Source: Anaerolineaceae bacterium (GTDB taxonomy: Bacteria > Chloroflexota > Anaerolineae > Promineifilales > Promineifilaceae). Taken from it: a stretch of 64,000 nucleotides of DNA. Position numbers and translations under genes: made by a program. Within the stretch, counting starts at the first letter, position 1, and every line of letters begins with the position of its first letter. Shown one piece after another: positions 55-6,875 of this stretch. The stretch is taken from positions 1-64,000 of the forward strand of contig PABI01000100.1 of assembly GCA_002699125.1 (NCBI GenBank), written 5' to 3'. The notes under the pieces are model-generated. The model searched no databases, was not told the origin of the DNA, and worked only from the letters and a program-made list of their open reading frames with translations.

Positions 55-239
55 CGGATTTTCATTCATGGTGTTGAGCTTGCGCTCATGTTGTCTCCTT
101 AAAGAATCGGGCGAGTTGATTAAGTTGACTTCAGTATGCCAGCCGACCATCACCAAACCGTGAACAACACCCACTGGCTGCATAACCAAACCATAACCAA
201 GTCATAACCATTGCTTATTGTGATAGAATGTGCTTCACC

Positions 240-3200
240 ATGAACAACTTGTCCCTGTCCTTGCTTGGCTCCTTTCAAGCCACTTTAGATGAAAACCCAA
301 TCACGCAATTCCGTACCAAAAGTGTGCAGGCATTGTTGATCTATCTGGTGTGCGAAGCGGAACGGCCGCATCACCGTGAAGCCTTAATGGAACTGCTCTG
401 GCCGGGAATGCCCCAAGCCTCTGCCCAGGCCAACATGCGCCAGACGCTGTACCGGCTGCGGAAGTTGATTCCGGAGGTGAAGGGGAAAGGTGGAGAAACG
501 CCTGTGCTGAGCGGGGTCGATGCAACCGTTCCCTTCCTCCTCAGCGACCGCCAAACCATCCAGATCAATCCTGAAGCCGACTACTATCTGGATGTAGCCA
601 CCTTTGCCACCAGCGAACCAGCACAAGCCATAACACTTTATCGCGGCGATTTTTTGGCCGATTTCTACTTGCCGGACAGCGAAGCGTTTGAAGCATGGGT
701 ATCAGGGCGGCGGGCCGACTATCGGCGGCGGGTTTTGGCGATGATGGAGGGGGAAACGGCCGTTCACCTGCAAAACGCCAACTACGACGAAGCTATCCAA
801 CTGGCAAGGCAGCAGTTAGACATCGACAACCTGCATGAGAGCACCCATCGGCAGTTGATGGAAGCGTTGGCGCGGAACGGCCGTCGCCAGGAAGCACTCA
901 GTCACTACAACAGCCTGCGTCAACTCCTGCAAGATGAATTAGCCATCGAACCAGAGCAGGAAACCATTGCCCTGGTTCAAGCAATTCAGGAAGGTGAGTT
1001 GAGTAACGCAGGCACCCCTCCCGCACCACAATCCATCCCACCCTTAGCAGATGAACCAGAACGCCCCAGGCATAACTTACCGCAGCGGCTTACCTCCTTT
1101 GTGGGCCGCGAAAAAGAAATAGCAACGATCACGGAGCTAATCAGCCAAAATCGTTTGGTGATGCTGACCGGCGTGGGCGGCATCGGCAAAACCAACTTGT
1201 GCCTGCAAGTGGGGCGTAAGATGCTGGATGAGTTTCCCGACGGCGTCTGGCTGGTAGAACTGGCCCCCATTGCCGATCCAGCGCTGGTGGCCAAAACAGC
1301 CGCCAATACCCTGGGACTGCGCGAATCGCCCGATCGCACGCTGGTCTCTTATGCCCGGGAAACCCAGGAGTCCGAACAGCGCTCGATTTTGCAGATTTTG
1401 CTTGATTATTTGCAGGAGAAACAATGCCTGCTCATTCTCGATAACTGCGAACACGTTATCGAGGCCGCTGCCCAATTTGTTGACACTTTGTTGCAAGCCA
1501 CGACCGGTGTCAAAATTCTGGCCAGCAGTCGGGAAGCGTTGGGCGTCCTGGGGGAAATACCTTTTCGCGTGCCCTCGCTCGCCGTTCCTGGCGTTCATCA
1601 ATTACCGGCGGTGAATGAGTGGCAGCAATTTGATGCGTTAACCCTTTTTGCGGAACGGGCAACGGCCGTTTCGCCAGAATTTCAGGTGACGGAAGACAAC
1701 TTTCCCTCGCTGGTGCAAATTTGCCAACGGCTGGATGGTATCCCCCTGGCGCTGGAATTAGCCGCCGCCCGCGTCAGCGTCCTCAACACAGCCCAAATTG
1801 CCACCCGTCTGGATGACCGTTTTCGTTTGTTAACCGGTGGCAGCCGCACCGCCTTGCCACGCCAGCAAACGCTGCGTGCCCTCATCGACTGGAGTTGGGA
1901 GCTGCTAACTGAAACAGAACAGATGTTGCTGCAGCGATTATCTGTCTTTGCCGGCGGAATGAATCTGGAAGCGGTGGAAGCCGTTTGTGCCGGTAACGGC
2001 CTTGATTCCTATGATTTGCTCGACTTGCTGAGCGAACTGGTCAGAAAATCGCTCGTCCTTTCCCGGCGCGAACCAGGGCAACCGATCCGTTACCATCTGC
2101 TAGAAACGATCCGCCAATATGCCCAGGAACGGTTGGTGACCACCAGACAAGGTGCCACCTTCCGCCAGCGTCATCTGGATTATTTCATGACGTGGGCCAA
2201 ACGTGCTAAACCGGAGCTAACCGGTCCTGATCAGGCAATGTGGCTCAATCGTCTGGAGAAAGAATTGGACAATCTGCGGGCGGCCCTCAACTGGGCGCTC
2301 GAAACAGATTGTGAAGCAGGTTTGCAGCTAGTGACGGCTAGTTGGCGATTTTGGGACCTCGGCTATGTCGCCGAGGGCGAAATGTGGCTGGCGCAGCTCA
2401 TGGCCAAGGCAGACTTAGTGGCTCCCGCGATCAAGGCCAAAGCTTTACAAGTGTGGGCCACATTCAATTTTAGTTTGTTCAAACGTGAAGAAGCTCGCCA
2501 GTTGTTTGAGCAAAGTCTCACCATGCACCAGGCGTTACAAGATGAGGCAGAAGTGGTCAATTCACTGCGTTTCTTGACCATCTTTCACGGTTTGATAGAG
2601 GGCCAAAGGGCATTGCTTGATCTTCTGTCCCGATTGCGCAAACCAGGCTATGAATTGCAGCTGGCGGAGACATTATTGTGGTTGGGTTATTATGAGGCCC
2701 AACAAAACAATTATGAAAAGGCCGAGGCTTTTGTGCGTGAGAGCGAATCTCTTTTTCGTAAAATGAATCACCTGGCCGGGCTGGCTGATGCACTGCAATG
2801 GTTTGGTCAATTTGCCACCTGGCAAGGAACATTCGAAGCCGCCCGGCTTCCCCTGGAAGAAAGTTTAGCCATACAAAAACAACTGGGTGAAAGAAGGGTT
2901 TTCAGCAGTCTGCAAATGCTTGGTGTTCTAAATCTCAAGTTGGGTAATTACCCGCAAGCCATACAGTTTCTCAATGAAAGCCTGGCGCTGACACAACATT
3001 CTGGGGCCATTGCCTTTGGCTATTGGACATTCATCCATCTTGGGTATGCCCAGTTGCGGCTGGGCGCACATGAGGAAGCACATCAGGTCTTTACCAAAAG
3101 TTTGAAGCAGTTCAATGACGTGCAAGAGCAAATTGGCGTCGTCTTTACCTTGGAAGGATTTGCCAGTTTGGCCGTGACCCAAAAGCAAGCTGAGCGAGCG

Positions 3201-3401
3201 GTACGGCTTTTTGCTTTTGCGGACCAGATGCGCGTGGCATTACACGACCCCCGGCCATTTTCTGAGCAGGCAGACGTGGAGCGGGATTTGGCGGCTATTC
3301 GGGAGATGATCGACCAGAACACCTTTGACGCTGCCTATGCCGCGGGTCAAGCCCTGACGATAGACGAAGCACTGGCTTACGCACTTGAAGATACGGATTG
3401 A
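240..3401 (+). CDS. BTAD/SARP-type transcriptional regulator with NB-ARC ATPase and TPR repeats
   Basis: Large STAND-type regulator of the AfsR/SARP class. The start at 240 (MNNLSLSLLGSF) matches the family's usual N-terminus better than the ATG at 228. Residues 1 to about 100 resemble the winged-helix DNA-binding domain and about 100-255 the bacterial transcriptional activation (BTAD) domain. An NB-ARC ATPase follows, with Walker A GVGGIGKT near residue 310 and Walker B CLLILDNCEH near residue 396. The C-terminal third (about 680-1000) is TPR-like. In the known family, ATP-dependent oligomerisation and TPR ligand sensing control DNA binding; target genes cannot be read from the sequence. It contains several in-frame ACGGCCGT palindromes. 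Confidence 0.88.
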   Translation: MNNLSLSLLGSFQATLDENPITQFRTKSVQALLIYLVCEAERPHHREALMELLWPGMPQASAQANMRQTLYRLRKLIPEVKGKGGETPVLSGVDATVPFLLSDRQTIQINPEADYYLDVATFATSEPAQAITLYRGDFLADFYLPDSEAFEAWVSGRRADYRRRVLAMMEGETAVHLQNANYDEAIQLARQQLDIDNLHESTHRQLMEALARNGRRQEALSHYNSLRQLLQDELAIEPEQETIALVQAIQEGELSNAGTPPAPQSIPPLADEPERPRHNLPQRLTSFVGREKEIATITELISQNRLVMLTGVGGIGKTNLCLQVGRKMLDEFPDGVWLVELAPIADPALVAKTAANTLGLRESPDRTLVSYARETQESEQRSILQILLDYLQEKQCLLILDNCEHVIEAAAQFVDTLLQATTGVKILASSREALGVLGEIPFRVPSLAVPGVHQLPAVNEWQQFDALTLFAERATAVSPEFQVTEDNFPSLVQICQRLDGIPLALELAAARVSVLNTAQIATRLDDRFRLLTGGSRTALPRQQTLRALIDWSWELLTETEQMLLQRLSVFAGGMNLEAVEAVCAGNGLDSYDLLDLLSELVRKSLVLSRREPGQPIRYHLLETIRQYAQERLVTTRQGATFRQRHLDYFMTWAKRAKPELTGPDQAMWLNRLEKELDNLRAALNWALETDCEAGLQLVTASWRFWDLGYVAEGEMWLAQLMAKADLVAPAIKAKALQVWATFNFSLFKREEARQLFEQSLTMHQALQDEAEVVNSLRFLTIFHGLIEGQRALLDLLSRLRKPGYELQLAETLLWLGYYEAQQNNYEKAEAFVRESESLFRKMNHLAGLADALQWFGQFATWQGTFEAARLPLEESLAIQKQLGERRVFSSLQMLGVLNLKLGNYPQAIQFLNESLALTQHSGAIAFGYWTFIHLGYAQLRLGAHEEAHQVFTKSLKQFNDVQEQIGVVFTLEGFASLAVTQKQAERAVRLFAFADQMRVALHDPRPFSEQADVERDLAAIREMIDQNTFDAAYAAGQALTIDEALAYALEDTD

Positions 3402-3541: not shown

Positions 3542-3570
3542 TTGACAAAGTGTATTTTTTACACTATTAT
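3542..3570 (+). promoter_or_regulatory. Sigma-70-type promoter with operator in the spacer
   Basis: A perfect -35 TTGACA (3542-3547) is followed after exactly 17 bp by TATTAT (3565-3570). The spacer contains the palindrome AGTGTA-N5-TACACT (3549-3565), so a bound repressor would cover the promoter core. It points at the 35-codon ORF and the PP2C/kinase pair. Positions 3402-3541 contain no recognisable gene. Confidence 0.75.
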
Positions 3571-3591
3571 GACTTCGTGTAATTTTTACAC
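3549..3591. promoter_or_regulatory. Paired operator-like palindromes
   Basis: Two related palindromes lie 28 bp apart (start to start): AGTGTA-N5-TACACT (3549-3565) and GTGTAA-TTT-TTACAC (3577-3591). The first sits between the -35 and -10 boxes and the second at or just after the expected transcription start. This is the typical geometry of a dimeric repressor binding cooperatively. No candidate repressor is adjacent, so the regulator is unknown. Confidence 0.6.
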
Positions 3592-3634
3592 ATATCATTT
3601 TTCAGCGAGACGACACCAACTGTCGTTGACCACC

Positions 3635-3742
3635 ATGAATTCAAATAGAACGCTGATGGTTCGGCTGCGCTCACCACAAGCTTACCTGAGCACCCTGATC
3701 AGGCAGATCATCAGCGTCCTATTTTCAGAGGAACCTGAATGA
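3635..3742 (+). CDS. Possible 35-residue leader ORF coupled to the PP2C gene
   Basis: The ATG at 3635 opens a 35-codon frame ending in TGA at 3740-3742. This stop overlaps the PP2C start codon as ATGA, the usual sign of translational coupling. The product (MNSNRTLMVRLRSPQAYLST and 15 more residues ending SEEPE) is basic, then amphipathic. I recognise no family. The same frame is open back to 3542, but that start lies inside the promoter. It could be a leader peptide or only a fortuitous frame in the 5' leader; no clear Shine-Dalgarno precedes it. Confidence 0.35.
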   Translation: MNSNRTLMVRLRSPQAYLSTLIRQIISVLFSEEPE

Positions 3743-4482
3743 TCAGCCAAGCTACCACACTCGGCCGTGCTCACCGCCTAATGCAGCACAACTGCCAGGA
3801 TTTTGCCGCCACTGCCTCCCTCACCCCCAACATCGCCATCGGGCTGGTGTGTGATGGCTGCGGCAGTAAATTTGTAGGCAACGGCCGTTCCCACCCCTCC
3901 CAAAACGAAATCGGCGCTAATCTGTTGGGCCAGTTTGCCATCGACTTTCTCAGCGACAAATTAAGCCACTTATCCCAACCACCCTGCCCGGAAAAGGTAG
4001 AAACCATTCTGGCTGATTTACACCTGGCCAGCCTCACCTTTTTGCATCATCTGGTGGCTCATTTTCCTGAAGCCACGCGCCGCCAATTTGTGGCTACACG
4101 ATTATTGTCTACGCTGGTTGGTTTTGTGCATGTGAGGGAAACGGCCGTTTTCTTCTGGCAAGGCGATGGCTTTCTGGTCGTAGACGGCACCATATGCCAG
4201 CTGGAAAGCAGCAACCAGCCTGACTACCTGGCTTACCAGCTGCTCCAGCCCACCCCCTGCCAGACCAACTTCCAACTTGCTTTTGTGCCCCAGCCGGAAC
4301 AAATCCGCTGGCTGGCAGTGGCTACTGACGGCTGGTCAGCGAACTTACTCAGCCAGTTAGGCGAGCCCCGTACGACGCTGACCCTACAGCGCTGGCTCAA
4401 CGTTCAAACGCAACAGCGCGGCCAGTTTGATGATGATGGGGCAGTGGCCATCTGGCACAAACAGGAAAATTGTGAATTGTGA
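3739..4482 (+). CDS. PP2C-family serine/threonine phosphatase
   Basis: This 247-residue protein has PP2C-type metal-binding motifs: NCQDF near residues 18-22 (Asp21), VCDGCGS at 37-43 (Asp39-Gly40), a GDG segment mid-protein, and VATDGW near residue 197. PP2C enzymes remove phosphate from Ser/Thr using two metal ions. The kinase that follows 67 bp downstream on the same strand is the obvious partner or substrate. Similar phosphatase/kinase pairs occur with a TerY-like vWA protein in bacterial stress systems, but no vWA gene is present here. Its start overlaps a 35-codon ORF, and a promoter with palindromic operators lies 170-200 bp upstream. Confidence 0.8.
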   Translation: MISQATTLGRAHRLMQHNCQDFAATASLTPNIAIGLVCDGCGSKFVGNGRSHPSQNEIGANLLGQFAIDFLSDKLSHLSQPPCPEKVETILADLHLASLTFLHHLVAHFPEATRRQFVATRLLSTLVGFVHVRETAVFFWQGDGFLVVDGTICQLESSNQPDYLAYQLLQPTPCQTNFQLAFVPQPEQIRWLAVATDGWSANLLSQLGEPRTTLTLQRWLNVQTQQRGQFDDDGAVAIWHKQENCEL

Positions 4483-4506
4483 ACCGGTCAGTTCATTCAC
4501 AATTCA
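4473..4506. repeat. AATTGTGAA hairpin overlapping the PP2C stop codon
   Basis: TGAATTGTGAA (4473-4483) pairs perfectly with TTCACAATTCA (4496-4506) across a 12-nt loop. The PP2C stop codon lies in the left arm. There is no U-tract, so it is not an ordinary terminator. The same word family recurs at 58385-58449. Confidence 0.6.
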
Positions 4507-4549
4507 AAAGCGACCAAAGTCACCCACAATCTCACCATTCAAAATTACC

Positions 4550-6355
4550 ATGGCACACACGATCTACATTCAAAACCAACGTTACCAGCTAGATGCCGCC
4601 GATTTGATTCAGTCGGGTGGTGAGGGGATGGTGTTTGGGCTGGGGAATACGGCCGTCAAGCTCTACCATCACCCCACGCCAGCCCATCAAGACAAAATAC
4701 GCCACTGGTTCGCCCAACCCCGACAACTACCCGGTGAAATTCTAGCCCCCTGTGCACCCGCCTTCAACAAGCAGGGCCAAATCATCGGCGTGCAAATGCC
4801 TCGACTGCCGGCCATGTCCGTGCCCTTAAAACAACTCAGCCTACCCAACTTTTGGCAGCAGCACGCGCTCACGACACAGCAAATCGTGCCGCTTTTCCAA
4901 AGGCTGCATCAGGCGCTAAGCCGACTGCACCAGCTGCAAATTGTGGTAGGTGACCTGAACGAAACCAACCTTTTTTTCACCCCGCCCGGCCAGAGTGCAA
5001 GCCAATCATTCTGGATTGATGTGGACAGCTACCAGTTTGGCCAGTTTCCTTGTCCGGTGGCTATGCCTGCTTTTTTGGATCCTACTCTGTACCACGTGAC
5101 AAATTTTGCTGAACGGCCGTATTTCACCCCCCTCACCGACTGGTATGCTTTTACCGTGCTGTTGGTAAAAAGTTTGCTCCAGATACATCCCTACGGTGGC
5201 GTACACCGCCAGCACAAATCGCTCCAGGCGCGGGCCACGGCCGGCGTCAGCATCCTGGCCAATGACGTCACCCTACCGCCTCGCGCACGTCCGCCAGAAA
5301 CATTGTCTGACGACCTGCTGCATCATCTGCACACCACGTTCGACAAAGGGGAAAGACGGCCGTTTCCGCCAAATCTTCTTCAAGAATACGCCCAAAACCT
5401 GCAAAGCTGCCCTCAATGCCAGCTGGCTTATCCCGGCAACCGGCGCGGCTGCCCGGCGTGCAGCCATCCCACGCCGGTGCCCGTGCAGCCCAGCGCCGCC
5501 GTCTCCAAAACGTTGCTCCAGGTAGACGGATTCATTGAGGCGGTTTTTGTGCAGCCAAACGGCCGTCTCCTCATCATTTACCGGCAAGGGGAGCAGTATC
5601 GTTTGGTTCGGGCCGGCATCGGCGGCTTGCTAAGCGAGATGGTCCTGTTTAACGGCAGCGTGGGCTACCGCTTCGGCACCTTCACCCGACCCGATGGCCA
5701 CGACTTTCTGGTGGTCAATCCGCCCCACCGACCGCAGCTGCTGGTGCTGGACATTTACAGCAGCCAGCCGCAGCAGGTGACGCTGCTGGAGACGGCCATG
5801 TTTCGGAATACGGCCGTTTTTACCACCACGCCCAATCATCTTTACCGCATCAGCGGCGGCTGGATCATACGCGGCAGCGTCCAGTATGGCAGCTATTTGG
5901 AAGATCCGGTTGGCACGGCCCACCGCGCCCAGACGCAGCTGTTTGGCTCCCCATTCAGCAACACCGTCGCCGGTTTTCATCGCATTTTTGCCGAGCACCG
6001 ATTTTTCACCATCACCCCCAATGGCACCGAACGCCAGCTGGCGACAGCGCTGCCGCCCGGTTCCTACATTGCTGAAGCGGCCGTTGTCTTTGCTCCGAAT
6101 TTGATTGGCGTGGTGCAGCAGTTGGCCGAAAACGGCCGTTTTCACACCCACGTTCAGGCATTTAACCAGCAAGGGCAGTGGCAGCAAAGCTGGGATTTGG
6201 GTGAGGATGGATGGGAAACGGCCGTGCACCAATTTGCCAGCCTCAAACAGCCCTTACCCCAACCGCTGCCGCCCAGCGACAAACTACATTACCATCCTGC
6301 CGGCTGGCTCATCCAACAGCCACAGCAGCTAAACTTCTTGGCTGCGAGCAAATAA
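4550..6355 (+). CDS. Atypical Ser/Thr protein kinase with zinc ribbon and C-terminal propeller-like region
   Basis: This 601-residue protein starts at ATG 4550 (MAHTIYIQNQRY). The kinase core shows a glycine loop GGEGMV (residues 23-28), a likely ATP lysine Lys37, a catalytic-loop GDLNETN with Asp135 and Asn140, and IDVDS (Asp157) in the DFG position, so catalysis looks intact. A four-Cys zinc ribbon follows (Cys287, 290, 301, 304). From about 310 to the end, repeated beta-rich blades with aromatic and Gly pairs suggest a propeller-like sensor region (inference). It is the third ORF behind the operator-bearing promoter and pairs with the PP2C phosphatase. At least seven ACGGCCGT octamers are used within it, in all frames. 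Confidence 0.8.
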   Translation: MAHTIYIQNQRYQLDAADLIQSGGEGMVFGLGNTAVKLYHHPTPAHQDKIRHWFAQPRQLPGEILAPCAPAFNKQGQIIGVQMPRLPAMSVPLKQLSLPNFWQQHALTTQQIVPLFQRLHQALSRLHQLQIVVGDLNETNLFFTPPGQSASQSFWIDVDSYQFGQFPCPVAMPAFLDPTLYHVTNFAERPYFTPLTDWYAFTVLLVKSLLQIHPYGGVHRQHKSLQARATAGVSILANDVTLPPRARPPETLSDDLLHHLHTTFDKGERRPFPPNLLQEYAQNLQSCPQCQLAYPGNRRGCPACSHPTPVPVQPSAAVSKTLLQVDGFIEAVFVQPNGRLLIIYRQGEQYRLVRAGIGGLLSEMVLFNGSVGYRFGTFTRPDGHDFLVVNPPHRPQLLVLDIYSSQPQQVTLLETAMFRNTAVFTTTPNHLYRISGGWIIRGSVQYGSYLEDPVGTAHRAQTQLFGSPFSNTVAGFHRIFAEHRFFTITPNGTERQLATALPPGSYIAEAAVVFAPNLIGVVQQLAENGRFHTHVQAFNQQGQWQQSWDLGEDGWETAVHQFASLKQPLPQPLPPSDKLHYHPAGWLIQQPQQLNFLAASK

Positions 6356-6365
6356 TTCACCTCGC

Positions 6366-6680
6366 TTACTTGCGAAATCGGCCAACGATGAGGCGATAGG
6401 GACAGTTGCGGCACTGATAATATTGCGTGTGCCACTGCCAAAAAACCGCCGAGCGCCGTCTTTCAGTAAAAATTTCTTTGCGTCTAAAAGCAAATGTGAT
6501 GTGGCAATGTGGGCATCTTGACTGCCGCCGAATCCAGAATGCACGGATGAACAAAACCGGTATGAAGAATCCCATGATTTTAGCTTCAACGGGAAACCCA
6601 CTCGCAGACAACATGCAGGCAAGACCAACATTCACAACGATAAGGAACCAATGAATAAGCCATTGAGAAAAATGTTCCAC
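6366..6680 (-). CDS. Small membrane protein with zinc ribbon
   Basis: About 104 residues. I place the start at GTG 6680 because GAGGG lies 5 nt upstream; the frame is open further (to 6737) but without a ribosome site. Two hydrophobic segments (IHWFLIVVNVGLACML and IMGFFIPVLFI) are followed by CPHC and, 30 residues later, CRNC, which would form one zinc ribbon on the cytosolic side. It is convergent with the kinase gene, only 10 bp from its stop. I do not recognise the family. Confidence 0.6.
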   Translation of the reverse strand: MEHFSQWLIHWFLIVVNVGLACMLSASGFPVEAKIMGFFIPVLFIRAFWIRRQSRCPHCHITFAFRRKEIFTERRRSAVFWQWHTQYYQCRNCPYRLIVGRFRK

Positions 6681-6875
6681 AGCAACCCTCTGGCATTTAT
6701 CAACGGGACAAAAAGATAAAACGAGGAAATGTCCCAAGAGAACTTTCGACTGATTTCATTATGCCACGCATCATATGATCGGCAAAAAAGTTATCATCTC
6801 CTCACATTCACGCCGATTTTTCTTTATTTTTCGTCTAATGCTTAGGGTAAAGCCGCTGCCTGGCCTGTTTGATGT

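Follow-up and report, generated by a model that had tools for sequence, protein, structure and literature searches.

We analysed a window of 64,000 nucleotides (positions 1 to 64,000 of contig PABI01000100.1, assembly GCA_002699125.1) from an Anaerolineaceae bacterium that GTDB places in the family Promineifilaceae, and in it a PP2C-type phosphatase gene and a divergent kinase gene that stand behind a promoter with two palindromes (3542-6355). The pair is likely part of a TerY-P-like phospho-signalling module that is repressed by NrtR and responds to the turnover of nicotinamide adenine dinucleotide (NAD). An initial annotation of the locus had proposed a repressible phospho-switch with its repressor outside the window; this reading is supported and can be extended, in that the palindromes are conserved predicted operators and NrtR can be named as the candidate repressor.

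The dual-operator promoter and its regulon

The promoter lies on the forward strand, as do all the features below unless marked otherwise. It consists of a −35 hexamer TTGACA (3542..3547), two bases (AA), operator 1 of the form GTGT-N7-ACAC (GTGTATTTTTTACAC, 3550..3564) within the 17-bp spacer, and a −10 hexamer TATTAT (3565..3570); operator 2, of the same form (GTGTAATTTTTACAC, 3577..3591), covers the predicted transcription start. The spacing between the −35 hexamer and operator 1 is fixed in relatives, operator 1 is kept in the family, and TAxxxT occurs in 73 of the 73 promoters compared. The comparison gave an extended operator 2 consensus of 21 bp, TTAGTGT-N7-ACACTAA, and a general consensus that relaxes to GTGT-N7-ACAC. 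Twelve further genomes of the family have PP2C homologues (the gene is split in G034), and all 12 carry TTGAC-N3-GTGT-N7-ACAC-TA or a close variant together with a second GTGT-N7-ACAC, operator 1 of G015 reading GCGT. The near-perfect promoter of the initial annotation, with one palindrome in its spacer and a second at the start, is therefore both present at 3542-3591 and retained by homologous genes in relatives. A PP2C homologue from another family (G074) was without it.

The initial annotation had also suggested searching for the palindrome elsewhere in the genome. The pattern TTGACNNNGTGTN7ACACTA matched three times there and its reversed control not at all, and a blind scan of 52 family genomes gave 69 matches in 36 genomes versus 1 for the reversed pattern; a scan of the family for the operator pair likewise returned matches in 36 genomes and 1 control match. 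Because the matches far outnumber those of the reversed control, the dual-palindrome architecture is not a product of chance.

The neighbourhoods of the scan matches were extracted and 73 distinct promoters compared, with open reading frames (ORFs) called by a simple longest-ORF rule and some starts approximate. In 69 of the 73, one of three modules lies within 1.5 kb downstream: a nicotinamidase-like hydrolase with or without a vWA protein (27), the kinase with or without PP2C (22), or an SPFH protein (20). The promoter marks a small conserved regulon, represented in the genome studied by PP2C-kinase in the window (contig C102), hydrolase-vWA (C164:56056) and SPFH-RpiB (C158:19544). Two of the other four promoters (L095:6703-8806 and L116, from genera g17 and g3) precede a different kinase with a J-domain stretch, paired with a protein containing a DVTGSM motif that resembles a metal ion-dependent adhesion site (MIDAS). 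RpiB, a ribose-5-phosphate isomerase, is encoded behind the SPFH gene in several genomes (the C158 operon; L076:6640-8048) and could use ribose 5-phosphate from ADP-ribose breakdown. A short, divergently oriented histidine-phosphatase gene (SixA-like, MKTLLVLRHAKSSW) is common beside the PP2C-kinase promoter in relatives (L065, L066, L068, L069, L072, L073), and none was found at the window locus.

The operator very probably also defines an NAD regulon, because it is present at all nadC promoters found. In the family loci located by following NadA, GTGT-N7-ACAC occurs around the nadC start in 13 of 13 nadC loci. For comparison, 731 kb of other sequence contain 8 isolated sites, and the 60 kb surrounding nrtR contain none. 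The nadC-nadA genes of genus g5 have the operator pair itself. NadA was not found in the genus of the window genome (g1, G000-G003), which may lack de novo NAD synthesis via quinolinate, yet keeps NrtR and the rest of the regulon.

NrtR as the candidate repressor

NrtR is very likely the repressor of the dual-operator promoters, as judged from sequence, because it co-occurs with the sites and is encoded next to the module in two distantly related bacteria and on two viral contigs. The NrtR of the window genome (P0007, contig C113) has an N-terminal Nudix domain and a C-terminal NrtR winged helix (Pfam NUDIX 2e-18, NrtR_WHD 1.2e-29), NrtR_WHD scoring above AraR_C; it reaches 203.7 bits with NCBIfam NF050029, below the cut-off of 400. 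By inspection its Nudix signature is impaired, PGSFVKINESLAEAAVRALADETGV differing from GX5EX7REUXEEXGU at three positions. NrtR is encoded in 35 of the 52 family genomes: 35 hold both NrtR and sites, 14 neither, 3 only sites (G008, G011 and G043, all drafts) and 0 only NrtR (Fisher 3.8e-10), and with each genus counted once the table becomes 18/1/0/3 (p 0.0026). Among 298 sampled genomes of the class, 11 from outside the family contain the operator pair; NrtR is encoded in every one of these 11, with a base rate of 91/281 (p 2.7e-6). Eight of these 11 pairs precede genes for an SPFH protein (L167, L171), the hydrolase (L168), a protein labelled nicotinamidase-like by reading (L173-L175) or a homologue, in another family, of the MIDAS-like gene (L176:1566-2543; L177:511-1476, reverse strand). 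As for linkage, the gene immediately after vWA in L255 (Planctomycetota) and L256 is NrtR by Pfam, which gives the collinear order PP2C-kinase-hydrolase-vWA-NrtR, and viral contigs L358 and L359 carry NAPRT-NadE-hydrolase together with NrtR (Pfam). No convincing operator-like inverted repeat was found upstream of the L255 and L256 clusters.

Two other regulators were considered and rejected. NiaR is not a candidate in this family, its 3H domain being found in 0 of the 52 genomes. Two ArsR-type genes precede the hydrolase-vWA operon in some members of the genus (G000:C164; L075:6220-7349); G003 and most relatives have this operon without them.

Several points weigh against NrtR control, and the first two would favour a different repressor that merely travels with NrtR in the class and binds the sites while NrtR regulates something else. 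First, nrtR does not appear to be autoregulated through this motif, as no such site was found at the 20 nrtR loci examined; in M. smegmatis, by contrast, NrtR does repress its own gene (PMC6800001). Second, the tandem motif is absent from 80 of the 91 NrtR-bearing genomes outside the family; NrtR operator motifs are known to vary widely (PMC4666351), which could fit this absence, yet is not proof. Such a repressor is nevertheless unlikely, since the nadC promoters carry the site and genes of this sort are known targets of NrtR repression (PMC6800001, PMC4666351), and since NrtR adjoins the module in the two bacteria and two viral contigs named above. Further, the co-occurrence statistics within the family are inflated by shared descent, the hydrolase resembles nicotinamidases weakly by sequence, and P0007 has as its best PDB match the arabinose-responsive AraR (1.4e-48), with a slightly weaker match to 3gz5 (4.8e-43), a Shewanella protein that responds to ADP-ribose. 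The case as a whole is built on sequence and structure prediction, from which NrtR binding, the inducer, the enzyme activities and the phosphorylation targets are inferred.

NAD genes are the targets of the NrtR proteins characterised so far, several of which have ADP-ribose as their effector; for NdnR the effector is NAD, and for AraR it is arabinose (PMC4666351, PMC6800001). By analogy, the inducer is probably an NAD metabolite. It is improbable that an AraR-like Nudix repressor senses a pentose here, as the AraR match and the recurrent RpiB gene behind the SPFH gene, taken as a sign of pentose use, might suggest: the nadC-nadA operons along with a nicotinamidase-like enzyme belong to the regulon, in which no gene for arabinose or xylose was seen, and NrtR_WHD outscores AraR_C.

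Under NrtR control, the three operons that share the promoter would be regulated together. NrtR dimers seated on the spacer operator and on the start-site operator would block RNA polymerase until released by a signal that reports NAD turnover; by analogy with NrtR proteins already studied, ADP-ribose is the most likely one. On the one hand, derepression would allow the nicotinamidase-like enzyme, with nadC-nadA where present, to refill NAD. On the other hand, the TerY-P-like kinase, PP2C and vWA set, together with the SPFH membrane protein, would set the phosphorylation state, the three proteins presumably acting on one another and on phosphorylation targets in the cell.

The kinase, phosphatase and vWA set

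The PP2C gene and the atypical kinase gene behind it were borne out. The phosphatase (3739..4482, 247 aa) matches Pfam PP2C_2 (E 2e-14) and has its metal-binding aspartates invariant (D21, D39 in DGCG, D197 in TDG, D232/D233). The divergent Ser/Thr kinase (4550..6355, 601 aa, ATG at 4550), assigned from a profile match, motifs and a model, has a kinase domain at residues ~1-286 with K37, GDLNxxN including D135 and DVDS including D157/D159; K37 and the GDLNxxN- and DVDS-type motifs are invariant among homologues. Its AlphaFold2 model (mean predicted local distance difference test, pLDDT, 89.3) matches PknB with Z 17.5 over 243 aligned residues at a root-mean-square deviation of 3.8. The zinc ribbon and propeller-like tail proposed for this protein could also be recognised: a CPQC...CPAC ribbon (5408..5482, residues ~287-311; weak Pfam match and motif), whose cysteines are lost in ~7 of 20 homologues, is followed by a predicted all-beta tail (5507..6352, residues ~320-601; model and Foldseek) with a paraoxonase propeller as its top Foldseek match.

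The coupled small ORF fared differently. A 35-codon ORF (3635..3742) does overlap the PP2C gene by ATGA, and the leader folds strongly (z −4.0). The fold is due to dispersed repeats, two of which abut at 3640..3728 and form a strong hairpin; the DNA of 3640-3728 has 55 full or partial repeat matches in the same genome. The repeats belong to two families, one around GGTTCGGCTGCGCTCACCACAAGCT and one of ~42 bp, both scattered over many contigs of G000. The ORF is absent from relatives, including two of the same genus that have the PP2C gene behind a different leader, and operator 2 is followed immediately by PP2C in several relatives. Accordingly, that a translationally coupled leader peptide controls PP2C, as the ATGA overlap and the folding leader could suggest, is most improbable, the more so because PP2C has its own ribosome site, AGAGGA. 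By its sequence the ORF is judged a chance frame in dispersed repeats, outside the system. A structured RNA in the leader was likewise rejected, as Rfam gave no credible match and the hairpin consists of the repeats. Conservation of the palindromes and of the small ORF, on which the initial annotation had made its reading depend, has thus come apart: the palindromes are conserved and the ORF is not.

Elsewhere in the window, a large regulator of 1057 aa with a BTAD domain, a STAND-type ATPase and TPR repeats is encoded upstream on the same strand (228-3401), and a small cysteine-rich protein with weak zinc-finger matches is encoded convergently with the kinase (6366-6737, reverse strand).

The lack of a vWA partner noted in the initial annotation is not supported for the genome: the gene is absent from the window and present on C164, behind the same type of promoter. 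The genome thus encodes vWA, PP2C and kinase alike, divided between contigs yet served by a single type of promoter. The vWA protein (P0004), encoded behind the hydrolase, has an intact, invariant MIDAS (D64xS66xS68, T134, D170); it is a weak match to Pfam VWA (21.6 versus a cut-off of 23.8 bits), and its profile found no match in PDB. In the hydrolase, D49, K193 and C243 as well as D92, H94 and W156-P157-x-H159 are invariant in 15 sequences, corresponding to a catalytic D-K-C triad and a metal site, and the model (mean pLDDT 75) has yeast Pnc1 and Acinetobacter PncA as its top Foldseek matches. Sequence and model suggest a putative nicotinamidase, and the NAPRT-NadE-hydrolase gene order on viral contigs provides a context for this role. 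The SPFH protein matches Band_7 at 1.5e-15.

Occurrence in other phyla and in huge phages

In G074 and distant phyla the genes form one cluster, in the order hydrolase-vWA-PP2C-kinase in L244, L245, L247 and L251, and PP2C-kinase-hydrolase-vWA in L252 (Spirochaetales), L253 (Ktedonospora), L255 (Planctomycetota), L256, L257 (Myxococcales) and L258 (Kofleriaceae). Viral contigs, taken together with phage records as viral on the assignment of the source collections, gave 59 matches to the first half of the promoter, about the chance level, and only two of these hold both operators. One (L305) looks like chance. The other, IMGVR_UViG_3300028840_001395 (435,804 bp), reads TTGACA-AA-GTGTN7ACAC-TATAAA followed by GTGTN7ACAC (L327:3528-3552, reverse strand; L352:2380 onward), directly upstream of genes for NAPRT-like, NadE, hydrolase and vWA proteins, with the kinase downstream and a macro-domain gene nearby. 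A search with its hydrolase retrieved 52 viral loci from IMG/VR; among 55 viral loci examined (L349-L403), the hydrolase was present in 53, vWA in 50, the kinase in 37, NadE in 6, PP2C in 5 and NAPRT in 5. Phage records of 462-595 kb also hold hydrolase, vWA and kinase (LR745208.1, L404; LR756500.1, L405; LR756511.1, L406); in LR756500.1 a PP2C gene stands between the latter two.

This distribution bears on whether the module is a TerY-P type anti-phage defence, its NAD link reflecting NAD depletion in defence. TerY-P-like modules act in defence according to PMC11090510, which cites Gao 2020, and versions of the module are carried by huge phages. A defence role is still rather unlikely: the single PADLOC library searched gave no TerY-P model match at E 0.01 and no relevant match overall, no nuclease or other effector was seen in the operons, and the set is spread over separate operons with nadC-nadA. 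More tentatively, NrtR control could form part of an NAD-breakdown alarm common to several bacterial phyla and huge phages, in which NrtR would sense ADP-ribose and the module would rebuild NAD and reset the kinase-PP2C-vWA switch, so that phages might survive host NAD depletion.

The system can be compared with three known ones. As in described NrtR regulons, a repressor with Nudix domain and winged helix, palindromic operators and nadABC-type targets are present (PMC6800001, PMC4666351). Unlike in those regulons, the main targets are the kinase/PP2C/vWA set, a divergent nicotinamidase-like enzyme and an SPFH protein, the operators are paired with one inside the promoter spacer, and autoregulation was not seen at the loci examined. 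The NrtR regulon, otherwise one of NAD enzymes, would thereby also take in protein phosphorylation and a membrane protein of the SPFH type.

The TerY-P triad comprises a TerY-like vWA protein, PP2C and a kinase with a C-terminal zinc ribbon (PMC11090510). The three protein types recur here and the window kinase has the ribbon behind its kinase domain, and a likeness to TerY-type triads is supported, the vWA protein being likened by domain and MIDAS. The differences are that the set is split over two operons, that a nicotinamidase-like hydrolase is added, that the kinase has a propeller-like tail and its ribbon is not conserved, that the repressor is probably one of NAD genes, and that no Ter or restriction genes were seen beside the set. 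The three TerY-P-type genes stand in one cluster in L244, L252, L253 and L255-L258, and not in the window genome. For the TerY-P-like set, these results supply a candidate signal (NAD turnover), a named candidate repressor and a testable promoter.

All the components belong to known types. The literature searched, which was mostly non-subscription, gave no description of their combination into a TerY-P-like switch under NrtR control that includes a divergent nicotinamidase-like enzyme and is shared with huge phages; the RegPrecise Chloroflexi collection (PMC3840689) may already list a related NrtR motif. NAD-synthesis genes of jumbo phages have been described in a text that mentions neither isochorismatase nor NrtR (PMC7824862), and L352, L358, L359, L389 and L403 likewise carry NAPRT-like and NadE genes. 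Here, in contrast, the hydrolase gene accompanies them; vWA and kinase genes are present as well in most cases, and NrtR in two. That huge phages carry this gene set too, in one case behind a promoter resembling the bacterial one, suggests a role in the conflict between phage and host over NAD.

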